A stretch of DNA of 64,000 nucleotides from Verrucomicrobiota bacterium (GTDB lineage Bacteria; Verrucomicrobiota; Verrucomicrobiia; JADLBR01), in contig JAKQKQ010000005.1 in NCBI GenBank assembly GCA_029560585.1, forward strand, positions 1-64,000, written 5' to 3'. Made by a program: the position numbers and the translations under genes. The notes beneath the pieces were generated by a model. The model did not search any database. It was not told the DNA's origin and worked only from the letters and a program-made list of their open reading frames with translations. Each line of letters starts with the position of its first letter. Position 1 is the stretch's first letter. Positions 54,899 to 64,000 of this stretch are shown in pieces.

Positions 54899-55060
54899 CT
54901 GCCTGTCGCATTCCTAAGAGGCGCGAATATCTGATGGGGAACGTTGAACCGGAGGCCGTGGCGTGGTACTGGTGATCCGTGATGGGTGGCCGACGGTGGC
55001 CGAACAGCCGCGGCGTCAGGGGCCATCCGGAGACGCGATCATAGAAACGGAGCATCGGAT

Positions 55061-55222
55061 ATGGCAGGCAAAGCACGACGCACGACGCACCGCAGCAGCG
55101 CGGGCAAGAAACTCTACGCGGTCCGGGATGCCAAGGGACGGTTCAAGGACATCCAGACCTACGAGCGCGCCCATCGGGCTGACTTGGCGCGCAAGAGCAA
55201 GGCCGAGCGCAAGAGCAAATAG
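55061..55222 (+). CDS. Small basic hypothetical protein
   Basis: The 53-residue product (MAGKARRTTHRSSAGKKLYA...) contains RDAKGRFKDIQTYERAH and ends in a Lys/Arg/Ser tail. The pattern KLYAVRDAKGRFKDIQTYERA recalls a small conserved protein found in bacterial genomes. GGAG nine bases upstream supports the start. It is probably nucleic-acid-binding because of charge, but that is a guess. Confidence 0.65.
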   Translation: MAGKARRTTHRSSAGKKLYAVRDAKGRFKDIQTYERAHRADLARKSKAERKSK

Positions 55223-55532
55223 TATCTCGCGACCTCGTCCGGTCTCCTGCGACGCCTCTGCCCATGTGGCGTGCGGTGCGCGGTTCGGCCGGGTGTTGCA
55301 TTTTTGCTTTGCTGAGCCTGGGCTTGCCCGCGGCGTTGTCCGTGGCCGATCCCAGCGGGGAGGACCATCCCTTTTTCGTTGCTGGACTCCTACGGCGGGG
55401 CGACCACGATCCGTCCCCGTTGGCGACCGGTCCGGTCGCGCGGCAGGGCCTGATCGGTTTTGTGGGCTCGCGGATTCTGTTAATGATAGAATCTTCTTAC
55501 CGTCGCATGCGCATGGTGCCAGACTCCCGCCG
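55223..55532. other. Gene-free stretch upstream of the MmeI-like gene
   Basis: No convincing gene. A 90-codon frame with a hydrophobic start (55264-55536) exists but lacks a ribosome binding site. The A/T-rich part near 55480-55500 could hold the promoter of the restriction-modification gene. Confidence 0.5.
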
Positions 55533-58463
55533 ATGAGTTCCGGTAAGAAGCCCACGCCCGCCCCCTCGGCAAGGGGCATCGACCCCGACCGCCTGCGCGC
55601 CTTCGCCGAGTGGTGCGCGAAGCACATCGACGGCGACGAGAAGAGCGAGGCGCAAATCTTCCTGGAGCACCTCTTCCAGGCCTTTGGCCACGGCGGCACC
55701 AAGGAGGCCGGGGCGACCCTGGAGGAGCGCGTCATCAAATCCTCGGGCGGCACGTCCTTCGCGGACCTCGTGTGGAAGCCGGTCGTTCTCATCGAGATGA
55801 AAAAACGCGGCGAGAACCTGCAGAAGCACTACCGGCAGGCGTTCGACTATTGGGCGCGCCTGGTGCCCGACCGCCCGCGGTACGTCGTTCTCTGCAACTT
55901 CGACGAGTTCTGGATCTACGACTTCGAGACCGACCTGGACACGCCCAAGGACAAGCTGCCGCTGGCCGACATGCCGGCCCGGTGGGGTCCTCTGGCCTTC
56001 CTCGCCGGGAAAAAGCCCTCCTTCGAGTCCGACCGCGAGGCCGTCACCCGCGATGCCGCCGACAGGCTCGCGAAGCTCTTCTCCCGGCTCGTGCACCGCG
56101 GCGTCGAGCGTCCGCTGGCGCAGCGTTTCATCCTCCAGACCCTCGTGGCCCTCTTCGCCGAGGACATCGGGCTGCTCGAAAAATACTTTGTCGCAGGCCT
56201 CATCAACGACTGCGCCAAGCCCGCCGACAGCTACGACTTGCTCGGCGGGCTCTTCGAGGCGATGAACCAGCCCAAGCCCGCATCCGGCGGGCGGTTCAGC
56301 GAAGTCGCCTACTTCAATGGCGGGCTGTTTGCCCAGCCCGCGCGCATCGAGCTCACCGCCACCGAACTTCTCATCCTCCAAGAGACGGCGAAATCCGACT
56401 GGTCCAAGGTCCAGCCCGAGATCTTCGGCACGCTCTTCCAGCACTCGATGGATGCCGGGGAGCGGCACGCCTTCGGCGCCCACTTCACCCATCCCGCCGA
56501 CATCATGAAGATAGTCGGCCCCACCCTCGTCGATCCGTGGCGCGAGCAGATCGAGGGTGCGAAAACCGTCAAGCGCCTCACCGAGCTTCGCGATCGGCTC
56601 CACGGCTTCCGTGTCCTCGATCCCGCCTGCGGCTCCGGGAACTTCCTCTACATCGCCTATCGCGAACTGAAGCGGGTCGAGGCCCGGATCTACGAGCGCC
56701 TCGCCGAGTTCCCCTCGAAGGCGGAGCCCGGCCAGATGCGTCTCAGCTTCCTGAGCGCGCAGAACTTCTTCGGCATCGACATCCTCCCCTTCGCCGTCGA
56801 GATCGCAAAGGTCACCATGATGGTCGCCCGCAAGCTCGCCATCGACGAACTCCACATCACCGAGCGGGCCCTCCCCCTCGACAACCTCGACGCCAATTTC
56901 AGGGCCGCCGACGCCCTCCTCGCCCCAGACGGTTCCCCCGCCACCTGGCCCAACGCCGATGTCATCATCGGCAATCCGCCGTTCCTCGGCGCGAAACGTC
57001 TCAAACCCGAACACGGGGCCGACTACGTGAACGCCGTCCGGCACGCCTATCCCGACGTCCCTGGCATGGCGGACTACTGCGTGTATTGGTTCCGCAAGGC
57101 CCACGAGCACTTGCCGCCCTGCACCGCCGCGGATCCCGTCGCCGGACGCGCCGGGCTCGTCGGCACCCAGAATGTCCGCAACAACCAGTCCCGCGTCGGG
57201 GGCCTCGACCACATCGCCGCCACCGGCACGATCCTCGAGGCCGTCGAGAACCAGCCCTGGTCCGGCGAGGCCAATGTCCACGTCTCGATCGTCAACTGGG
57301 CCAAGACCCAGGACACCGCACTCCTGCCCAAGAAACGAAAACTCTGGTTCAAGGTCGAGCCCATCGCCTCGCAGAAGATGCTCCGCAAACGCTCCGGCCC
57401 CGCCGCCAAAGACTACGAGCTGGATTGCCGCATCTGTGACGCGATCAATTCGGCGCTTTCGGATCAGGTGGATGTGAGCGGGGTGAAAACCCTGCGGTGC
57501 AACCAGGATCCGCCGTGTGTCTTCAATGGACAGTTTCCCCGCCACAAGGGCTTCGTCTTGACGCCCGCGGATGCCGCGAAGTTGCTCAGCGCCAATAGCC
57601 GAAATCGCTGCGTGGTCCATCCCTTCCTGATCGGCGCAGAGATGCTGACCGATGGCGAACCGCAACGCTGGGTGATCGACTTTCAGAAGATGCCCATCAC
57701 CGAGGCCCAGCGCTATGAAGAACCATTCAGGTGGGTGAAAGAGCGCGTTCTACCGCATGTTGAGGACCTGGCGAATAAGGAGCACAAGAAAACGGGCAAG
57801 GATGCGGGTCAAGACCAGCAATGGATGAAGACGTGGTGGCAGCATTTCCGATGTCGTAAAGAGCTGATCGATACCATCGGTCGGCTGCCGCGCTATCTGG
57901 CCTGCTGCGAAGTCACCAAGCGCCCGATCTTCTGTTTCATCGATCCGGAGATTCGGCCCGATCACACGCTGGAAGCATTCGTGCTCTCCGACGACTACAG
58001 CTTCGGCATCCTACAGTCCTCAGCCCATTGGCTTTGGTTCACGACAATTTGCAGCAAGTTGAAGTCCGACTTCCGATATACACCGAATTCCGTCTTCGAC
58101 ACCTTCCCCTGGCCGCAGGGGCCGTCCGCCAAGCACGTCACCACGGTCGCGGAGGCGGGGAGAGAGGTGCGGCGGATCCGCGCCCAGGCCCTCGACAAAC
58201 TCAAGGGCGGGTTGCGCGCGTTGTACCGCACCCTCGAACTCCCCGGCGCCAACCCGCTCAAGGACGCCCACGCCGCCCTCGACGACGCCACGTTCGGCGC
58301 CTATGGCTTCAACCCCAAGAAAGACCTGCTAGCCCAGATCCTCGATCTGAATCTCGCGGTCGCTGCTCGCATCGAACGGGGCGAGAAAGTCACCGCCCCT
58401 GGCGTGCCAACGGGCCACCCCGATCCGAAATGCCTCATCACCGGCGACTGCATCCGGCCCTGA
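55533..58463 (+). CDS. MmeI-like fused restriction endonuclease-methyltransferase (type IIL)
   Basis: The 976-residue product has an N-terminal PD-(D/E)xK-type domain with Asp78 and Glu88-x-Lys90 (LIEMKKRG). A helical spacer (about 180-330) follows, then an N6-adenine methyltransferase with DPACGSGNF (363-371) and NPPF (481-484). A target-recognition region (about 600-850) and a C-terminal helical part close it. This is the MmeI/type IIL architecture, in which one polypeptide modifies and cuts. No separate restriction gene is needed. The start is at MSSGKKPTPAPSA; Shine-Dalgarno weak. Confidence 0.88.
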   Translation: MSSGKKPTPAPSARGIDPDRLRAFAEWCAKHIDGDEKSEAQIFLEHLFQAFGHGGTKEAGATLEERVIKSSGGTSFADLVWKPVVLIEMKKRGENLQKHYRQAFDYWARLVPDRPRYVVLCNFDEFWIYDFETDLDTPKDKLPLADMPARWGPLAFLAGKKPSFESDREAVTRDAADRLAKLFSRLVHRGVERPLAQRFILQTLVALFAEDIGLLEKYFVAGLINDCAKPADSYDLLGGLFEAMNQPKPASGGRFSEVAYFNGGLFAQPARIELTATELLILQETAKSDWSKVQPEIFGTLFQHSMDAGERHAFGAHFTHPADIMKIVGPTLVDPWREQIEGAKTVKRLTELRDRLHGFRVLDPACGSGNFLYIAYRELKRVEARIYERLAEFPSKAEPGQMRLSFLSAQNFFGIDILPFAVEIAKVTMMVARKLAIDELHITERALPLDNLDANFRAADALLAPDGSPATWPNADVIIGNPPFLGAKRLKPEHGADYVNAVRHAYPDVPGMADYCVYWFRKAHEHLPPCTAADPVAGRAGLVGTQNVRNNQSRVGGLDHIAATGTILEAVENQPWSGEANVHVSIVNWAKTQDTALLPKKRKLWFKVEPIASQKMLRKRSGPAAKDYELDCRICDAINSALSDQVDVSGVKTLRCNQDPPCVFNGQFPRHKGFVLTPADAAKLLSANSRNRCVVHPFLIGAEMLTDGEPQRWVIDFQKMPITEAQRYEEPFRWVKERVLPHVEDLANKEHKKTGKDAGQDQQWMKTWWQHFRCRKELIDTIGRLPRYLACCEVTKRPIFCFIDPEIRPDHTLEAFVLSDDYSFGILQSSAHWLWFTTICSKLKSDFRYTPNSVFDTFPWPQGPSAKHVTTVAEAGREVRRIRAQALDKLKGGLRALYRTLELPGANPLKDAHAALDDATFGAYGFNPKKDLLAQILDLNLAVAARIERGEKVTAPGVPTGHPDPKCLITGDCIRP

Positions 58464-58578: not shown

Positions 58579-58914
58579 TCAGGTCGGACGAGCGCCTTGG
58601 TGGGCTCTCTTCTCCATGAGGGCGATTTGCGTCCGAACGGGGTCGATGATGTCGGCGGCTACCATGTCCTCTGGGATGAATGTTCCGTCCGTGAGATTAA
58701 GTCCAAGAACGCCATCGCGTGAGCTAATGTGGTAACCTGGTCGGCATGTGCGCACTCGTTCGAAGAGCGATTTCATGCCGCGACGGAAGCCGAAAGAGTT
58801 GGTGACGCGAAAGACATGCCGCGAGCACGTCTCACGATAAACACATGGTCGCTTGAGCCGACGAGGCCAGACAAGCCAGTAGAGTCGGATTGCTGCGAGC
58901 AGTAGAAATCTCAC
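58579..58914 (-). CDS. YidD-like cysteine-containing protein
   Basis: The 111-residue product starts at a GTG overlapping the upstream stop by four bases. A hydrophobic N-terminal segment (FLLLAAIRLYWLVW) is followed by CVYRETCSRHVFRVTNSFGF...GMKSLFERVRTCRPGY. This resembles the YidD pattern (C-x4-TCS-x-Y, then RC-x-P). YidD aids membrane protein insertion; here it is a divergent version in a mobile-element setting. Overlaps suggest co-translation with the DUF4177-like gene. Confidence 0.68.
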   Translation of the reverse strand: MRFLLLAAIRLYWLVWPRRLKRPCVYRETCSRHVFRVTNSFGFRRGMKSLFERVRTCRPGYHISSRDGVLGLNLTDGTFIPEDMVAADIIDPVRTQIALMEKRAHQGARPT

Positions 58915-59138
58915 GCCCGGAACACCACGAACTCGGTTGTGATCGTTGTTGGTGGTGTGGCGCCAAAACCGAAGCAACCGTTTGAGCCCGCCTTGAACGT
59001 CTGGAGCTGGGAGACGCCGACGTACTCCCATCCGTTCGATGCGTAGCTGGTGATGAGAGCTTCGAGTGATGCGGCTAAATGTCCAGGGTCCTGCATGTTG
59101 CCGATTGCGGCGCTAAAAGGGACGACTTTGTATTGCAT
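58911..59138 (-). CDS. DUF4177-like small protein
   Basis: The 75-residue product (MQYKVVPFSAAIGN...) contains LEALITSYASNGWEYVGVSQLQTF and ends TEFVVFRA, resembling the short DUF4177 pattern. Function unknown. It lies directly upstream of, and overlaps, the YidD-like gene. Confidence 0.6.
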   Translation of the reverse strand: MQYKVVPFSAAIGNMQDPGHLAASLEALITSYASNGWEYVGVSQLQTFKAGSNGCFGFGATPPTTITTEFVVFRA

Positions 59139-59349: not shown

Positions 59350-60159
59350 TCAGGGGCCGCCGCGTTTCTGCATGCCCGTGGTTGGAGACATTGCCGGAAA
59401 TTTCCTAGATGTTCGAAGAAGGTGAATGCCCACGAAGGCCGCGAGTGGATGAATGCGCGCATTCAGGCACATGGGACCGGGTTCCGATGCGAGTTTTTCG
59501 GATGCCCATCGTTCTGGATGCTGGCTCCGAAGGACCGCGTTCTCATAGATTTGCCGAGATCTCGTGAGCACTGCTCCGCCCTCCCCGAGGGTCATGGGCT
59601 TGCCGGGACCAAAGGAAAGGACCTGGACGTCGGCCACGGATCGGACATCCCGTGTTCCAGTGACCCCCGGGATCAGGGCCGAGTCTTCGATGTATAGTAG
59701 GCCGTTCGCGTCGCAGATCTGACGGACTCGTGGTGCATCGTGTCGCGAATGTTCCCAGTCAACGGCGAGAACCGCGCGGGTCTCTTTGGTAATGAGCCGC
59801 TCCACGGATTCTGGACAAAGGGTTCCGCCCGACGCGGGTTTGGCGCGCACGAGACGGCCCCCCGCGAACTCGAATGGGCCGATACTCCCGGGCCAGCAAT
59901 TCGGGGGGCCGATGATCTCGGCATCACGCAAGTCAGCGGCGAGCGCGATAACCAGCAGGGCTGTCGTGGCATTGCAGGTGGCGAGGCAGTACGGGAATCC
60001 GCAGGTTTCCGCCAAGATCTGTTCGAATTCCGCGATTGGACCGCCCCCTCGAAGCTGTTGACCCCGGTACGCGTGCGGATCACCGAGGAAACCGTGGACA
60101 TAGTCCGCGACGGCACGCGCGATGCGGCTGTTAAAAGACAGATCGTCAAACGTTGACAT
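59350..60159 (-). CDS. DegT/DnrJ/EryC1-family PLP aminotransferase, short form
   Basis: The 269-residue product shows the DegT core: LGDPHAYRGQQL, FEQILAETCGFPYCLATCNATTALLVI, PPNCWPGSIGPFEFAGGRLVRA, YIEDSALIPG (Asp159 binding the cofactor nitrogen) and the PLP lysine Lys187 in SFGPGKPMTLGEGG. Family members are usually 360-400 residues with a C-terminal domain, so about 100 residues are missing. It ends QKRGGP and overlaps the AAA+ gene start. Its role in this operon is unknown; nucleotide-sugar amination is the usual one. Confidence 0.75.
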   Translation of the reverse strand: MSTFDDLSFNSRIARAVADYVHGFLGDPHAYRGQQLRGGGPIAEFEQILAETCGFPYCLATCNATTALLVIALAADLRDAEIIGPPNCWPGSIGPFEFAGGRLVRAKPASGGTLCPESVERLITKETRAVLAVDWEHSRHDAPRVRQICDANGLLYIEDSALIPGVTGTRDVRSVADVQVLSFGPGKPMTLGEGGAVLTRSRQIYENAVLRSQHPERWASEKLASEPGPMCLNARIHPLAAFVGIHLLRTSRKFPAMSPTTGMQKRGGP

Positions 60160-61960
60160 GGGGTTTCAATTCCTCGATCCGTTGGTTGAGACGCTCGACA
60201 TCTATGCCGCCGTCGGTCTCACTGACGATGCCCTTCAGGTACGGGGGCATTGGGTAATCAGTGATTCGTTCGTGCCAAGGAAGCATTGACAGGTCGCTGC
60301 ATACGCTGATGGCGAAGAGATCGGCATACTCCGCTCCAGCGCGGTCTCGCGGATGCTGGGGTGCACAGTCAATCGCTGCTTGGAGGAGCAGGCTTTGGGG
60401 TTGGCTCCCTTTGCCGGTGGCGATTTTGGAAGAGATGATTGTCCGCATGACCCGCGGGCTGGCCCCCTTCCGGAAGAAGAGCTGGGCCGCATCCCGGAGG
60501 AGGGTGCCCGCCGGATCCCAGGCCACATCGGGCAGAAGATGGGCAGCCACCGCGCAGAGGATGGCCGGATAGTCTTCCTCCACCGCGGACAGGACGGGGA
60601 TGAACATGAACCGACTGGCCATCGCCGAGCCGACGCGCCAGGGGCAATTAGTCGTGGCGATCAGCAAGGTTCGGCCAGCCCGCGAAGAGTCGGACAAGGC
60701 ATTGAGCATTTCGGCGGTCACTGCGGCCGATGCGCCGCCGTCCATATTCATGGATTGCCGCTCCATCTGGAAGGCTTCGGTGATCTCATCGATGACCCCG
60801 AACGCCGGGCTCAGTTCCTTGAAGATCCGGAACTGAAGGCGCACTCGCTGTTCGGTCTGGCCAACCAGGGACCCTTTGGGGCTGACCAGCGAATAGGCCG
60901 GAGTCTGGGAAAGCAGGGCGGTCAGGAGAGCCATGTCTGTCTTGGCGGACGAGGGCGCCCCGGCCAAGAGCACATTCATCGGGGTGTGCCGGTCGCCTTC
61001 CTTGAGGCCGATGGCCCATTTCTGAAGGAGATCCATGACCCTCTCGACCGTGCGACCGACCAGCCTGATCCCCCGGACGCGTTCGATGTCGAGAAGGTGG
61101 AGGGTTCCTTCGGACAGCGAGACGACGTCGGCTCGTTTGCGCTCGACGATGCGCGTGTGCGTGATCGGTCGGCCAGAGCGCGACGACTCCAGAAACGCCT
61201 CTTCGAGGCTCTGGTTGGGGGTGCGAGCCGTGAGGTTAGCCACCGCGGGATCGTCGAGGCCTGCCTCGAAGGCCGCCCCTTTTAAGTGGGGCATGGCCCT
61301 AAGCGCTCTGAGGAATGCCAGCTTCTCTTCACGTTCTGGCTGAGGCAGATGAACGGGTTGGAGGCAGTTCACAACGCACCGATCCATTCGCTCGGGCACT
61401 CCGGTGAGGATCATCAGGAACGGATGCCGGCGGCGCTGATAATCGCTTCCCATGATGACCAGCAACTCGTTCATCTGCATGACCCAGTCGTTCGGGGTGC
61501 CATGGCTGGCAAATGGGACGAGATCCTCTCCGAACTCAAGCAACGTCAGGGTCGGTGGGATATCGGCCCCTTGCTCAATCGTTTGTTGAATTGATTTGAT
61601 CAGGTCGAACGCGCGCTCGTGGGCGCCGCGTCCCGTGAGGGTATTTCGCGCCTCGTCCTGCAGCGGGATGTGGGCGGCCGCAAGTTTCGACTCGAATGCC
61701 CGCCTCTCGTTCGGGCTGAAAGCATCCCAGCACCAGCGTGGCCCGAGCGCCAGATTGAAGACCAGGGTCGCCATTCCGAACTCCTCCTTCGCGCGGCGGA
61801 TCAGAGTGTGCCGGAGGGGGCGAAGCTCGCCCCGTTCATTGATGTGGAGGTCGAGGAGGGACCGGCCCGACACCAACAAGGTCTGGTGCCCGGCTCGATA
61901 CGCGTCGAGGATCGGTTCGATGGTTGTTTTCTGGCTCTCGGGCGGCTCGATGTGACTCAT
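60146..61960 (-). CDS. Two-lobed AAA+ ATPase (Ycf46/MoxR-like organisation)
   Basis: The 604-residue product has an N-terminal lobe resembling a degenerate AAA fold (PTLTLLEFGEDLVPF, FLMILTGVPERMDRCVV) without P-loop. The active C-terminal AAA+ domain has Walker A GAPSSAKT (about 334-341), Walker B FGVIDEI (about 387-393) and sensor 1 ATTNCP (about 435). A C-terminal lid follows. The inactive-first, active-second order resembles Ycf46-type ATPases, but I did not prove the relation. It is upstream of, and overlaps by 14 bases, the DegT-like gene. Confidence 0.75.
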   Translation of the reverse strand: MSHIEPPESQKTTIEPILDAYRAGHQTLLVSGRSLLDLHINERGELRPLRHTLIRRAKEEFGMATLVFNLALGPRWCWDAFSPNERRAFESKLAAAHIPLQDEARNTLTGRGAHERAFDLIKSIQQTIEQGADIPPTLTLLEFGEDLVPFASHGTPNDWVMQMNELLVIMGSDYQRRRHPFLMILTGVPERMDRCVVNCLQPVHLPQPEREEKLAFLRALRAMPHLKGAAFEAGLDDPAVANLTARTPNQSLEEAFLESSRSGRPITHTRIVERKRADVVSLSEGTLHLLDIERVRGIRLVGRTVERVMDLLQKWAIGLKEGDRHTPMNVLLAGAPSSAKTDMALLTALLSQTPAYSLVSPKGSLVGQTEQRVRLQFRIFKELSPAFGVIDEITEAFQMERQSMNMDGGASAAVTAEMLNALSDSSRAGRTLLIATTNCPWRVGSAMASRFMFIPVLSAVEEDYPAILCAVAAHLLPDVAWDPAGTLLRDAAQLFFRKGASPRVMRTIISSKIATGKGSQPQSLLLQAAIDCAPQHPRDRAGAEYADLFAISVCSDLSMLPWHERITDYPMPPYLKGIVSETDGGIDVERLNQRIEELKPHVNV

Positions 61961-61990
61961 GGGAGATTCCCTTCGGGTTCTAGGCTGGGT

Positions 61991-62752
61991 TCAGTTAGCG
62001 GAACGGACGTACAGTCGTTGGTCAATCCGGTCGTGGTCAAAGGCCGGCTGCGAGTGTTTGCGGTGGCGCGCGCGCAGGTCGCAGCGTACACCGCGGGCGC
62101 GGAGTTCGGCCTGGAGGGCGTCGAGGGTCTGGGCGCAGGCGCCGCCCGTGAAGCCGTTGGCGTCGAAATGAATCTGAACCCCGCCGTCCTTCACCTTCGC
62201 CACTTCGATCGCGAGGCTCTGGCGTGTTCCCGGCCTAGTGGCCACTAGGAGTCCGTCCCCTGGCTCCAGCACGGTGGGGGTAAACCCGACGGACTGACAC
62301 GACTGCGCGATGATCGGAAGCAACTGCGCCTGCATCCGGGTCTGTCGCTTGACCACCAGTTCCCGAGCGACCACTTGAACACCAGCCCTGTCATTCCGGG
62401 CAACTAGCGATTCCAGTCTGGCCGTGAGGGCGCTCGCCTCGGATTGGGTGACATCGAGACCCGAGTTCGTGGCGAGGGCAAGCACCGCATCCCTGGCGGT
62501 TGCCGAGGATGCGATCGCCTCACGGATCTCGGGAAGAGACGCACGATGACGCGACTCCTGAATCGCCCCCGCCAGGGCCTTGCCGCCCCTGTATGCCAGG
62601 ACACCCCCGACCACGGCCCCTTTCACCGCGAGCTTTGTTGCCTGAAAGGTGACCCAGCCGACAGCGCTGATGACTTCGCCGAGCGAGATCAAAGGCTCGC
62701 TAGGGGGGACATCGATTTCCTCGATCGTTGTGGTGTTTCGGGTCTCGCTCAT
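61991..62752 (-). CDS. Membrane-anchored protein with DUF2997-like C-terminus
   Basis: The 253-residue product has a hydrophobic stretch at about 35-60 (VGWVTFQATKLAVKGAVVGGVLAYRGG), a helical middle part and a C-terminal strand-helix region: VKDGGVQIHFDANGFTGGACAQTLDALQ. This pattern (G-x-x-G-x-x-C then helix) resembles DUF2997, which is often found with DUF1257/Ycf35 and Ycf46-type ATPases. AGGAG upstream supports the start. The gene lies 30 bases upstream of the AAA+ gene. Confidence 0.6.
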   Translation of the reverse strand: MSETRNTTTIEEIDVPPSEPLISLGEVISAVGWVTFQATKLAVKGAVVGGVLAYRGGKALAGAIQESRHRASLPEIREAIASSATARDAVLALATNSGLDVTQSEASALTARLESLVARNDRAGVQVVARELVVKRQTRMQAQLLPIIAQSCQSVGFTPTVLEPGDGLLVATRPGTRQSLAIEVAKVKDGGVQIHFDANGFTGGACAQTLDALQAELRARGVRCDLRARHRKHSQPAFDHDRIDQRLYVRSAN

Positions 62753-62792
62753 GGTGGCTCCTGTGGGTTGTGTGTCTTGCTTCCTTTGGCGT

Positions 62793-64000
62793 CTAGACTC
62801 GGCGTGCGGTCGGAAAGATGGTTTCCCAGTCGGCCGGCGGGGCTTCGTCGGACGGGGAGTCATCTGGGTCACTGTGGATGCCCTGATGGTAGCCCGCGAC
62901 TGTCGCGCCGTTGCCGTTAGGACCAAACGGTTGCGTTGGGGAATCCGGGGGAGATTGGGGCACCCTCTCCTGGACCGCGTCGGAGGTGGTGGAAACTGGA
63001 TTCTGTGCATTCTCAGGGAGCCGGATGACATCCCTCTTGTACAGTTTGATGATGCTCGGGATGACCGGTTCGGCGGCGGCGATGAAATCCTGCTGGTATC
63101 CGTTCGGTGCCGTGCGAATGCGCTCATAGATTTCGCGCAAGACGTGGCCTTCTTCCCCGCGCAAGGCAGTGGCCCGAGCTTCCGCCGGACCACGTCGGAA
63201 CCTGGCCAGTTCCAGTTCCCTGGCGAAACCATTGGTGGGAAGCAGTAGGACCAGTGCATGCAGGAGAACGATCACTGCATAGAAAACACCCGTGGCCCCT
63301 GCCAGCCGTGTGGTTGAGGCCGCCGCCTCGGCATTCTCCGCCTTCGGTGCGCCTGCCTCATCCGCCTCGATGGCGCCCCCTTCAATTCTGATGCCGAGGT
63401 CGGTCCATTCGGCGGCCTGTTTCTGTTCCACCGCAAAGTCTGCCATGATCGCCGCGCGTTCTTGGGCAAACCCGAAAAGCCACAGGTAGAGGCTGGCCGC
63501 GGCGACGATATAGGCCACCCTGGCAAAGTGCATGCCCCAGATGCCGCAAGTCAGGCACCAATACCGAAGATCCTCACCGGCCATCAACGACGAGCGCGCC
63601 CTCTTAAAGACTCCCGAGAACCACGTGGTGGCCAGTTTCGTCAGGAGCGTCGCCACAAGCATTGACCCGATGAACCCAGCGCCCGCCACCCGCCGGAGCC
63701 AGATGGACATACCGCCGGTGGCCGGATCGAACCCAAAGTGCGGGGCCATGTTATATGCGAGAACATCGGCGATATCGCCCGAGCTGAGGAACTCCATCAA
63801 AGGAAGAAACAAGATCGCGCCCCAGAAGATCCATACCATCTTCCAATCGGCGCGATCTGCTAAGACACGCTGACGAAAACCGTCAAGGTCGCCATCATAC
63901 GCCACGATCCGGCGCTCGAGTCCACCCGCCCTGGCATCTAGATCGATTGCCGCTTCCACCTGATCGCGAAAGGCGCGGATCGTGCGCTGCCGTTCGCTGT
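62793..64000 (-). CDS. Multi-pass membrane protein, 5' end outside the window
   Basis: At least 402 residues are visible. The frame is open through the edge, so the N-terminus lies beyond 64000. It has four or five hydrophobic segments: WKMVWIFWGAILFLPLMEFL, FIGSMLVATLLTKLAT, VAYIVAAASLYLWLFGF and VFYAVIVLLHALVLLL. The part before the first is a polar, probably coiled-coil, region. The C-terminal part is a disordered Pro/Ser-rich tail. No family is recognised. It is the first visible gene of the AAA+ operon, 40 bases before the DUF2997-like gene. Confidence 0.72.
   Translation of the reverse strand, partial: SERQRTIRAFRDQVEAAIDLDARAGGLERRIVAYDGDLDGFRQRVLADRADWKMVWIFWGAILFLPLMEFLSSGDIADVLAYNMAPHFGFDPATGGMSIWLRRVAGAGFIGSMLVATLLTKLATTWFSGVFKRARSSLMAGEDLRYWCLTCGIWGMHFARVAYIVAAASLYLWLFGFAQERAAIMADFAVEQKQAAEWTDLGIRIEGGAIEADEAGAPKAENAEAAASTTRLAGATGVFYAVIVLLHALVLLLPTNGFARELELARFRRGPAEARATALRGEEGHVLREIYERIRTAPNGYQQDFIAAAEPVIPSIIKLYKRDVIRLPENAQNPVSTTSDAVQERVPQSPPDSPTQPFGPNGNGATVAGYHQGIHSDPDDSPSDEAPPADWETIFPTARRV

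Follow-up and report, generated by a model that had tools for sequence, protein, structure and literature searches.

Ycf46-type ATPases are encoded in the plastid genomes of algae and in cyanobacteria, and no settled function for them was found in the literature searched. Two described layouts come closest to the locus studied here, namely the Ycf46-DUF1257-DUF2997 module, one defining part of which is absent here, and the FtsH ternary systems, from which the locus differs in lacking MoxR. The latter (FtsH ternary vWA-MoxR systems) possess an AAA+ protein with an inactive N-lobe and an active C-lobe, and a radical SAM protein can be among their effectors (Kaur et al. 2020, PMC7159879). A functional comparison, and no more than that, is offered by Detocs, a defensive two-component system of kinase and receiver proteins in a three-gene layout with an effector domain (PMC11249213). 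For the combination of genes that we describe in the following, no match to any described system was found.

The window, i.e. the whole stretch of DNA that was analysed, comprises bases 1-64000 (64,000 nucleotides) of a contig in a 7.06-Mb genome of 336 contigs. At its end the first-pass annotation had recognised four leftward genes, here I, J, K and L, with gaps of 40 (I-J) and 30 bases (J-K) and an overlap of 14 bases (K-L), all of which is exact on the minus strand. When the contig is read past position 64000, as had been proposed, the operon continues with eight more same-strand genes (H to A) upstream of I. Together, the 12 genes form one operon (A-L) that extends from contig position 59350 to about 75059 and has I-J-K-L at its 3' end:

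A, contig 72852-75059, minus strand: 735 aa, kinase-like protein
B, contig 71566-72870, minus strand: 434 aa, predicted receiver protein
C, contig 70814-71563, minus strand: 249 aa, possibly a degenerate receiver
D, contig 67791-70817, minus strand: 1008 aa, predicted receiver protein
E, contig 67203-67751, minus strand: 182 aa, OGFr_N family
F, contig 66508-67206, minus strand: 232 aa, possibly a degenerate receiver
G, contig 65065-66495, minus strand: 476 aa, predicted receiver protein
H, contig 64137-64994, minus strand: 285 aa, small protein with a hydrophobic start
I, 62793-64118, minus strand: 441 aa ORF, multi-pass membrane protein with four hydrophobic segments (hydropathy); the gene begins 118 bases beyond the window end (window part 62793-64000)
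J, 61991-62752, minus strand: 253 aa ORF, DUF2997-like C-terminal stretch at residues 182-218
K, 60146-61960, minus strand: 604 aa ORF, Ycf46/CDC48-type AAA+ ATPase with a degenerate N-lobe
L, 59350-60159, minus strand: 269 aa ORF, DegT/DnrJ/EryC1/StrS-type PLP enzyme without the C-terminal domain

Intergenic distances within A-L range from -19 to 70 bases, and the genes are closely spaced throughout. Between E and F there is an overlap of 4 bases (with the F start at 67206), and the widest gap, of 70 bases, lies between G and H. Beyond the four tail genes, the new elements are the receiver domains in B, D and G, the kinase motifs in A, and the assignment of E to OGFr_N.

The Ycf46-DUF1257-DUF2997 module has its counterpart in K and J, where a two-lobed AAA+ protein lies beside a DUF2997-like protein. 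K is co-linear with Ycf46-like proteins over residues 98-443 (hhalign probability 95%, E 3e-8, against a profile of two members), and its N-lobe on its own scores 28.7, compared with a maximum of 19.1 in 30 shuffles. This bears out the earlier description of K as an ATPase with one inactive and one active AAA lobe. The C-lobe carries the Walker A motif GAPSSAKT (residue 334), the Walker B motif VIDE (389) and the sensor ATTN (435), and it is here that the single Pfam AAA match is located (PF00004, residues 330-452, E 4.5e-9). PDB matches of K are mostly of VCP/CDC48 type, the best being the VCP-like 5vc7 (E 1e-11, residues 186-460). The Walker A motif is unusual in having an alanine in place of its last glycine, and we put the ATPase activity of K as no more than likely. 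Relatives of K were found neither in the contigs of a collection of 84,980 species genomes (searched with a strict pattern pre-filter) nor in viral contigs, and a plasmid collection returned generic AAA matches only.

A difference from the described module is that the DUF2997-like stretch of J is the fused end of a longer protein (253 aa). Against a profile of six DUF2997 members from related genomes, J reaches an hhalign score of 27.9 (E 2.2e-4, probability 45%), while the highest value is 19.3 for the other ORFs in a set of 105 control proteins and 17.4 for 60 shuffles. The match covers IEVAKVKDGGVQIHFDANGFTGGACAQTLDALQAELR. J has no Pfam match to DUF2997, hence the label 'DUF2997-like'. J had been described as a membrane protein with such an end; the end stands, being above all controls, while the membrane part is doubtful, as no segment of J exceeds a Kyte-Doolittle mean of 1.6, a value that four segments of I surpass. 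A further difference from the described module is that no DUF1257 was found here and that receiver, kinase-like, membrane and DegT genes are added. The suggested likeness to a Ycf46/Ycf35 neighbourhood does not extend to a DUF1257 (Ycf35) part beside the AAA+ gene: as a candidate for it J was rejected with an hhalign score of 11.3, below shuffles, and PF06868 (DUF1257) has no match anywhere in the genome.

The remaining genes of the AAA half are I, H and L. The four hydrophobic segments of I agree with its earlier description as a multi-pass membrane protein; it has no family match, and no relatives were found in 241 genomes. H likewise has no meaningful family match, and its C-terminal half is vWA-like by eye only. 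L shares large-domain homology and the active-site lysine (GPGKPM, residue 184) with the DegT/DnrJ/EryC1/StrS sugar aminotransferases, and differs from them in its position within an AAA operon and in the missing C-terminal domain, as originally described: the match to PF01041 (E 3e-31) covers profile positions 15-235 of 360, i.e. the C-terminal third is missing. The best solved relative of L is the transaminase 5k8b, which matches L residues 31-249 with the lysines aligned. A frameshift as the cause of the short L was rejected, as the missing domain was seen in no downstream frame (by eye). Among 319 genomes of the phylum, the nine best relatives of L are encoded by open frames of 371-585 codons, longer than that of L, and several of them sit in sugar-biosynthesis surroundings. 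In none of these nine loci does a K-like gene occur within 1.5 kb; such a lack of conserved linkage between the DegT gene and the ATPase had been named in advance by the first-pass annotation as one outcome that would refute its reading. The relatives of L are ordinary full-length sugar aminotransferases without K adjoining, and the DegT-ATPase pairing is, as far as seen, a local event.

In the upstream half, features of a two-component phosphorelay appear, i.e. receivers with an acidic pair, Asp, Ser/Thr and Lys, indicated by profile in B and G (B without a clear Lys) and by motifs in D. From sequence comparison, B, D and G are assigned receiver domains. Against a receiver profile built from 30 regulators of the same genome, B scores 37.7 (E 5.8e-5) and G 36.8 (E 9e-5), with shuffles near 16 in both cases. 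D was missed by this profile, probably because of insertions. D and its relative from a Lentisphaera genome (see below) share the receiver residues, namely the acidic pair, the phosphoacceptor Asp, the Ser/Thr and the Lys-Pro (LLVDDQ, LDLRL, FSST, KP), and when a profile of these two sequences is compared with the PDB, CheY entries rank first, with the acidic pair in register, at an E of only 0.03. By eye only, C, F and the end of B resemble degenerate receiver and ATPase domains; C and F are possibly degenerate receivers.

A contains histidine-kinase motifs in the expected order: an H-box-like MSHEARR (492), an N-box-like LRNILKH (631), ITNYGR and GGTFGAV. Among 243 ORFs, this ordered pattern was found only in A and in eight ORFs from known regulator or kinase loci, and in none of 20,000 shuffles. 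However, the pattern was written after A had been seen, Pfam gives no match for A, and profile comparison, including hhalign against a HATPase domain, did not bear out DHp/HATPase domains in it; we therefore call A no more than 'kinase-like'. AlphaFold models of the C-terminal part of A (mean pLDDT 48) and of the receiver region of D (41) were too poor for fold searches. With Detocs, the operon shares kinase-like and receiver proteins, possibly for defence. By contrast, A-L consists of 12 genes instead of three, contains no known Detocs effector domain that could be found (no PNP or nuclease domain in A-L was over the Pfam cut-off), and has an AAA+ machine instead. PADLOC gave no match of the operon to a defence family, and PHROGs, NCBIfam and PADLOC returned nothing useful for its genes of unidentified family.

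Only a single occurrence of the complete set of 12 genes was found. For D, 388 genomes of the phylum yielded one true relative, on contig DYMC01000059.1 of a Lentisphaera MAG (27% over 335 aa, E 1e-24), which is also the only true match in the 84,980-species collection (strict pattern pre-filter). A match in Paenarthrobacter (L019), on the opposite strand of a DNA polymerase gene, was rejected as chance, and so were two other matches of the analysis (L023 and L024). Besides the D relative, the Lentisphaera contig encodes a receiver-sigma54 activator and a DUF4407-like membrane protein (E 1e-4, which does not reach the curated cut-off), together with a coiled-coil protein, an AAA protein and a protein that is weakly kinase-like. 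As in A-L, a D homologue lies near a receiver, a membrane protein and an AAA protein; unlike A-L, the Lentisphaera side has an AAA lobe of ClpB type, a sigma-54 activator and a kinase-like protein that is weakly so. In pairwise tests, K, I and J showed no detectable homology to the AAA, membrane and coiled-coil proteins of this contig, so that D alone links both loci, and DYMC01000059.1 presents a layout that parallels A-L without proving a common family. No relatives of substance were found for A in 289 genomes; A, D and G had no match in the plasmid collection, and D and G nothing in viral contigs. E matches OGFr_N (E 4e-6), and a search of 241 genomes of the phylum turned up no other gene of this kind. 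Plasmids of Gemmatirosa and Halomonas carry relatives of E in contexts that are unrelated, and the neighbours of these relatives were rejected as kin of the A-L operon.

In composition, the operon is a mosaic. GC is 0.50 in A and 0.50-0.55 over A-D, rises gradually through E-G and amounts to 0.61-0.65 in H-L; this suggests the joining of two modules that differ in origin. The split between the signalling and the AAA half speaks against a single system, and the two halves could be neighbouring units. A two-component-like set (A-G) and a housekeeping or stress module of Ycf46-type AAA and DUF2997 (H-L) would then be independent and adjoin by chance in a genomic island. We consider this somewhat unlikely. 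It would accord with the difference in GC, with the position of the 70-base gap at the G-H boundary, and with two-lobed AAA/DUF2997 modules in two genomes (G063 and G104) where no receiver gene was seen adjoining; yet the genes are closely spaced from A to L, GC shifts gradually across E-G, and the D relative in Lentisphaera is likewise near a membrane protein and an AAA protein.

We tentatively favour the reading that A-L was acquired horizontally and works as one system, in which the kinase-like protein and the receivers control a Ycf46-like AAA machine, probably in response to stress or conflict. Phosphotransfer from the kinase-like A to the receivers B, D and G (C and F possibly being degenerate receivers) would be triggered by a signal of stress or invasion. 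The receiver state would gate the assembly of K, the AAA+ remodelling machine, with its DUF2997-like partner J, the multi-pass membrane protein I and H, with its hydrophobic start, at the membrane. ATP hydrolysis by K may then cause a target to be assembled, released or unfolded, perhaps E (OGFr_N) or L (the short DegT), which would be add-on cargo or effectors. The more specific proposal that a phosphorelay of several receivers directly controls the Ycf46-like AAA+ protein as a new conflict or stress system, with the OGFr_N and truncated DegT proteins as effectors, is in our judgement unlikely. The original suggestion of an undescribed membrane-associated remodelling or modification system holds in so far as no described match was found, and had missed the signalling half, i.e. 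the receivers and the kinase-like protein. If true, the tie of a Ycf46-type machine to receivers would suggest gating by phosphorylation and provide a testable entry point, and the layouts known for bacterial conflict systems would come to include AAA machines driven by kinases and receivers.

Several genes surrounding the operon bear on its delimitation:

Upstream of A, up to contig 80659, same strand as A-L: DppC, DppB, a family-5 binding protein, a radical SAM protein and an ABC ATPase
Contig 78468-79661, same strand: radical SAM gene, in this dipeptide-transporter run
54963-58463: MmeI-type restriction-methylation protein
Contig 81152-83503: TraD-like ATPase
Contig 86712-89252: HerA-like ATPase

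The dipeptide-transporter/radical SAM run directly precedes A with gaps of -13 to 15, a close spacing compatible with one transcript. We treat it as a unit separate from A-L because of the sharp GC step from 0.64 in DppC, an ABC permease, to 0.50 in A. A biosynthetic cluster for a natural product or glycan, in which the DegT, radical SAM and dipeptide-transporter genes are regulated by the AAA protein and the receivers, appears quite improbable to us: the radical SAM, binding-protein, permease and ABC ATPase genes do lie immediately before A on the same strand, but GC jumps at the junction, L is without the C-terminal domain of full-length aminotransferases, and A-L contains no other gene of sugar or peptide biosynthesis.

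The same radical SAM gene is relevant to a relationship of A-L with the FtsH ternary conflict systems, in which K would be the inactive-plus-active FtsH-type component and the radical SAM protein a nearby effector, as such systems can carry (PMC7159879). K indeed shares the two-lobed layout within a multigene operon. However, it is CDC48/Ycf46-like rather than strictly FtsH; A-L, with one AAA gene only, lacks MoxR, caspase and Ubl and has receivers and a kinase-like protein instead; family searches found a vWA domain neither in H nor in the other proteins; and the radical SAM gene belongs to the dipeptide-transporter run beyond the GC step, all of which leaves this relationship improbable. The MmeI-type, TraD-like and HerA-like neighbours fit a genomic island. 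Left of 48 kb, GC in the window is mostly 0.62-0.70.

Within and around the minus-strand operon A-L, which runs from the kinase-like gene A to the short DegT gene L, the following features were recorded (L002 and L017 are stretches of the same contig):

54963-58463, plus strand, MmeI-type restriction-methylation protein adjoining the operon
58911-59138, minus strand, 75-aa ORF downstream of L, DUF4177-like by eye
L002:10203-10751, gene E, bacterial opioid growth factor receptor family (OGFr_N) protein
L017:2070-7659 (contig 75070-80659), leftward, transporter genes (ABC ATPase, family-5 binding protein, two permeases) in one run with a radical SAM gene, immediately upstream of A
L017:8152-10503, TraD-like ATPase
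L017:13712-16252, HerA-like ATPase

The MmeI-type protein possesses MmeI_N, TRD and spacer domains besides MmeI_Mtase (E 5e-33). The 75-aa ORF is without an NCBIfam match. Between the transporter run and gene A the GC content steps from 0.64 to 0.50. A second radical SAM gene lies between the TraD-like and HerA-like ATPases, and this arrangement suggests a mobile or defence island. Gene E is the sole OGFr_N example found among 241 genomes of the phylum, and its relatives occur on Halomonas and Gemmatirosa plasmids.

Gene sets were also recorded at two loci in other genomes:

L014:100-12844, Lentisphaera contig, receiver-sigma54 activator and relative of D (one of the operon genes with a receiver domain), together with a DUF4407-like membrane protein, a ClpB-type AAA, a coiled-coil protein and a protein that is weakly kinase-like
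L026:8752-11104, genome G063 of the phylum, DUF2997 protein encoded in one operon with a two-lobed AAA and a protein whose start is hydrophobic

No earlier description of the Lentisphaera set was found. Two of the L026 proteins, the two-lobed AAA and the hydrophobic-start protein, have counterparts in a further locus, L031.
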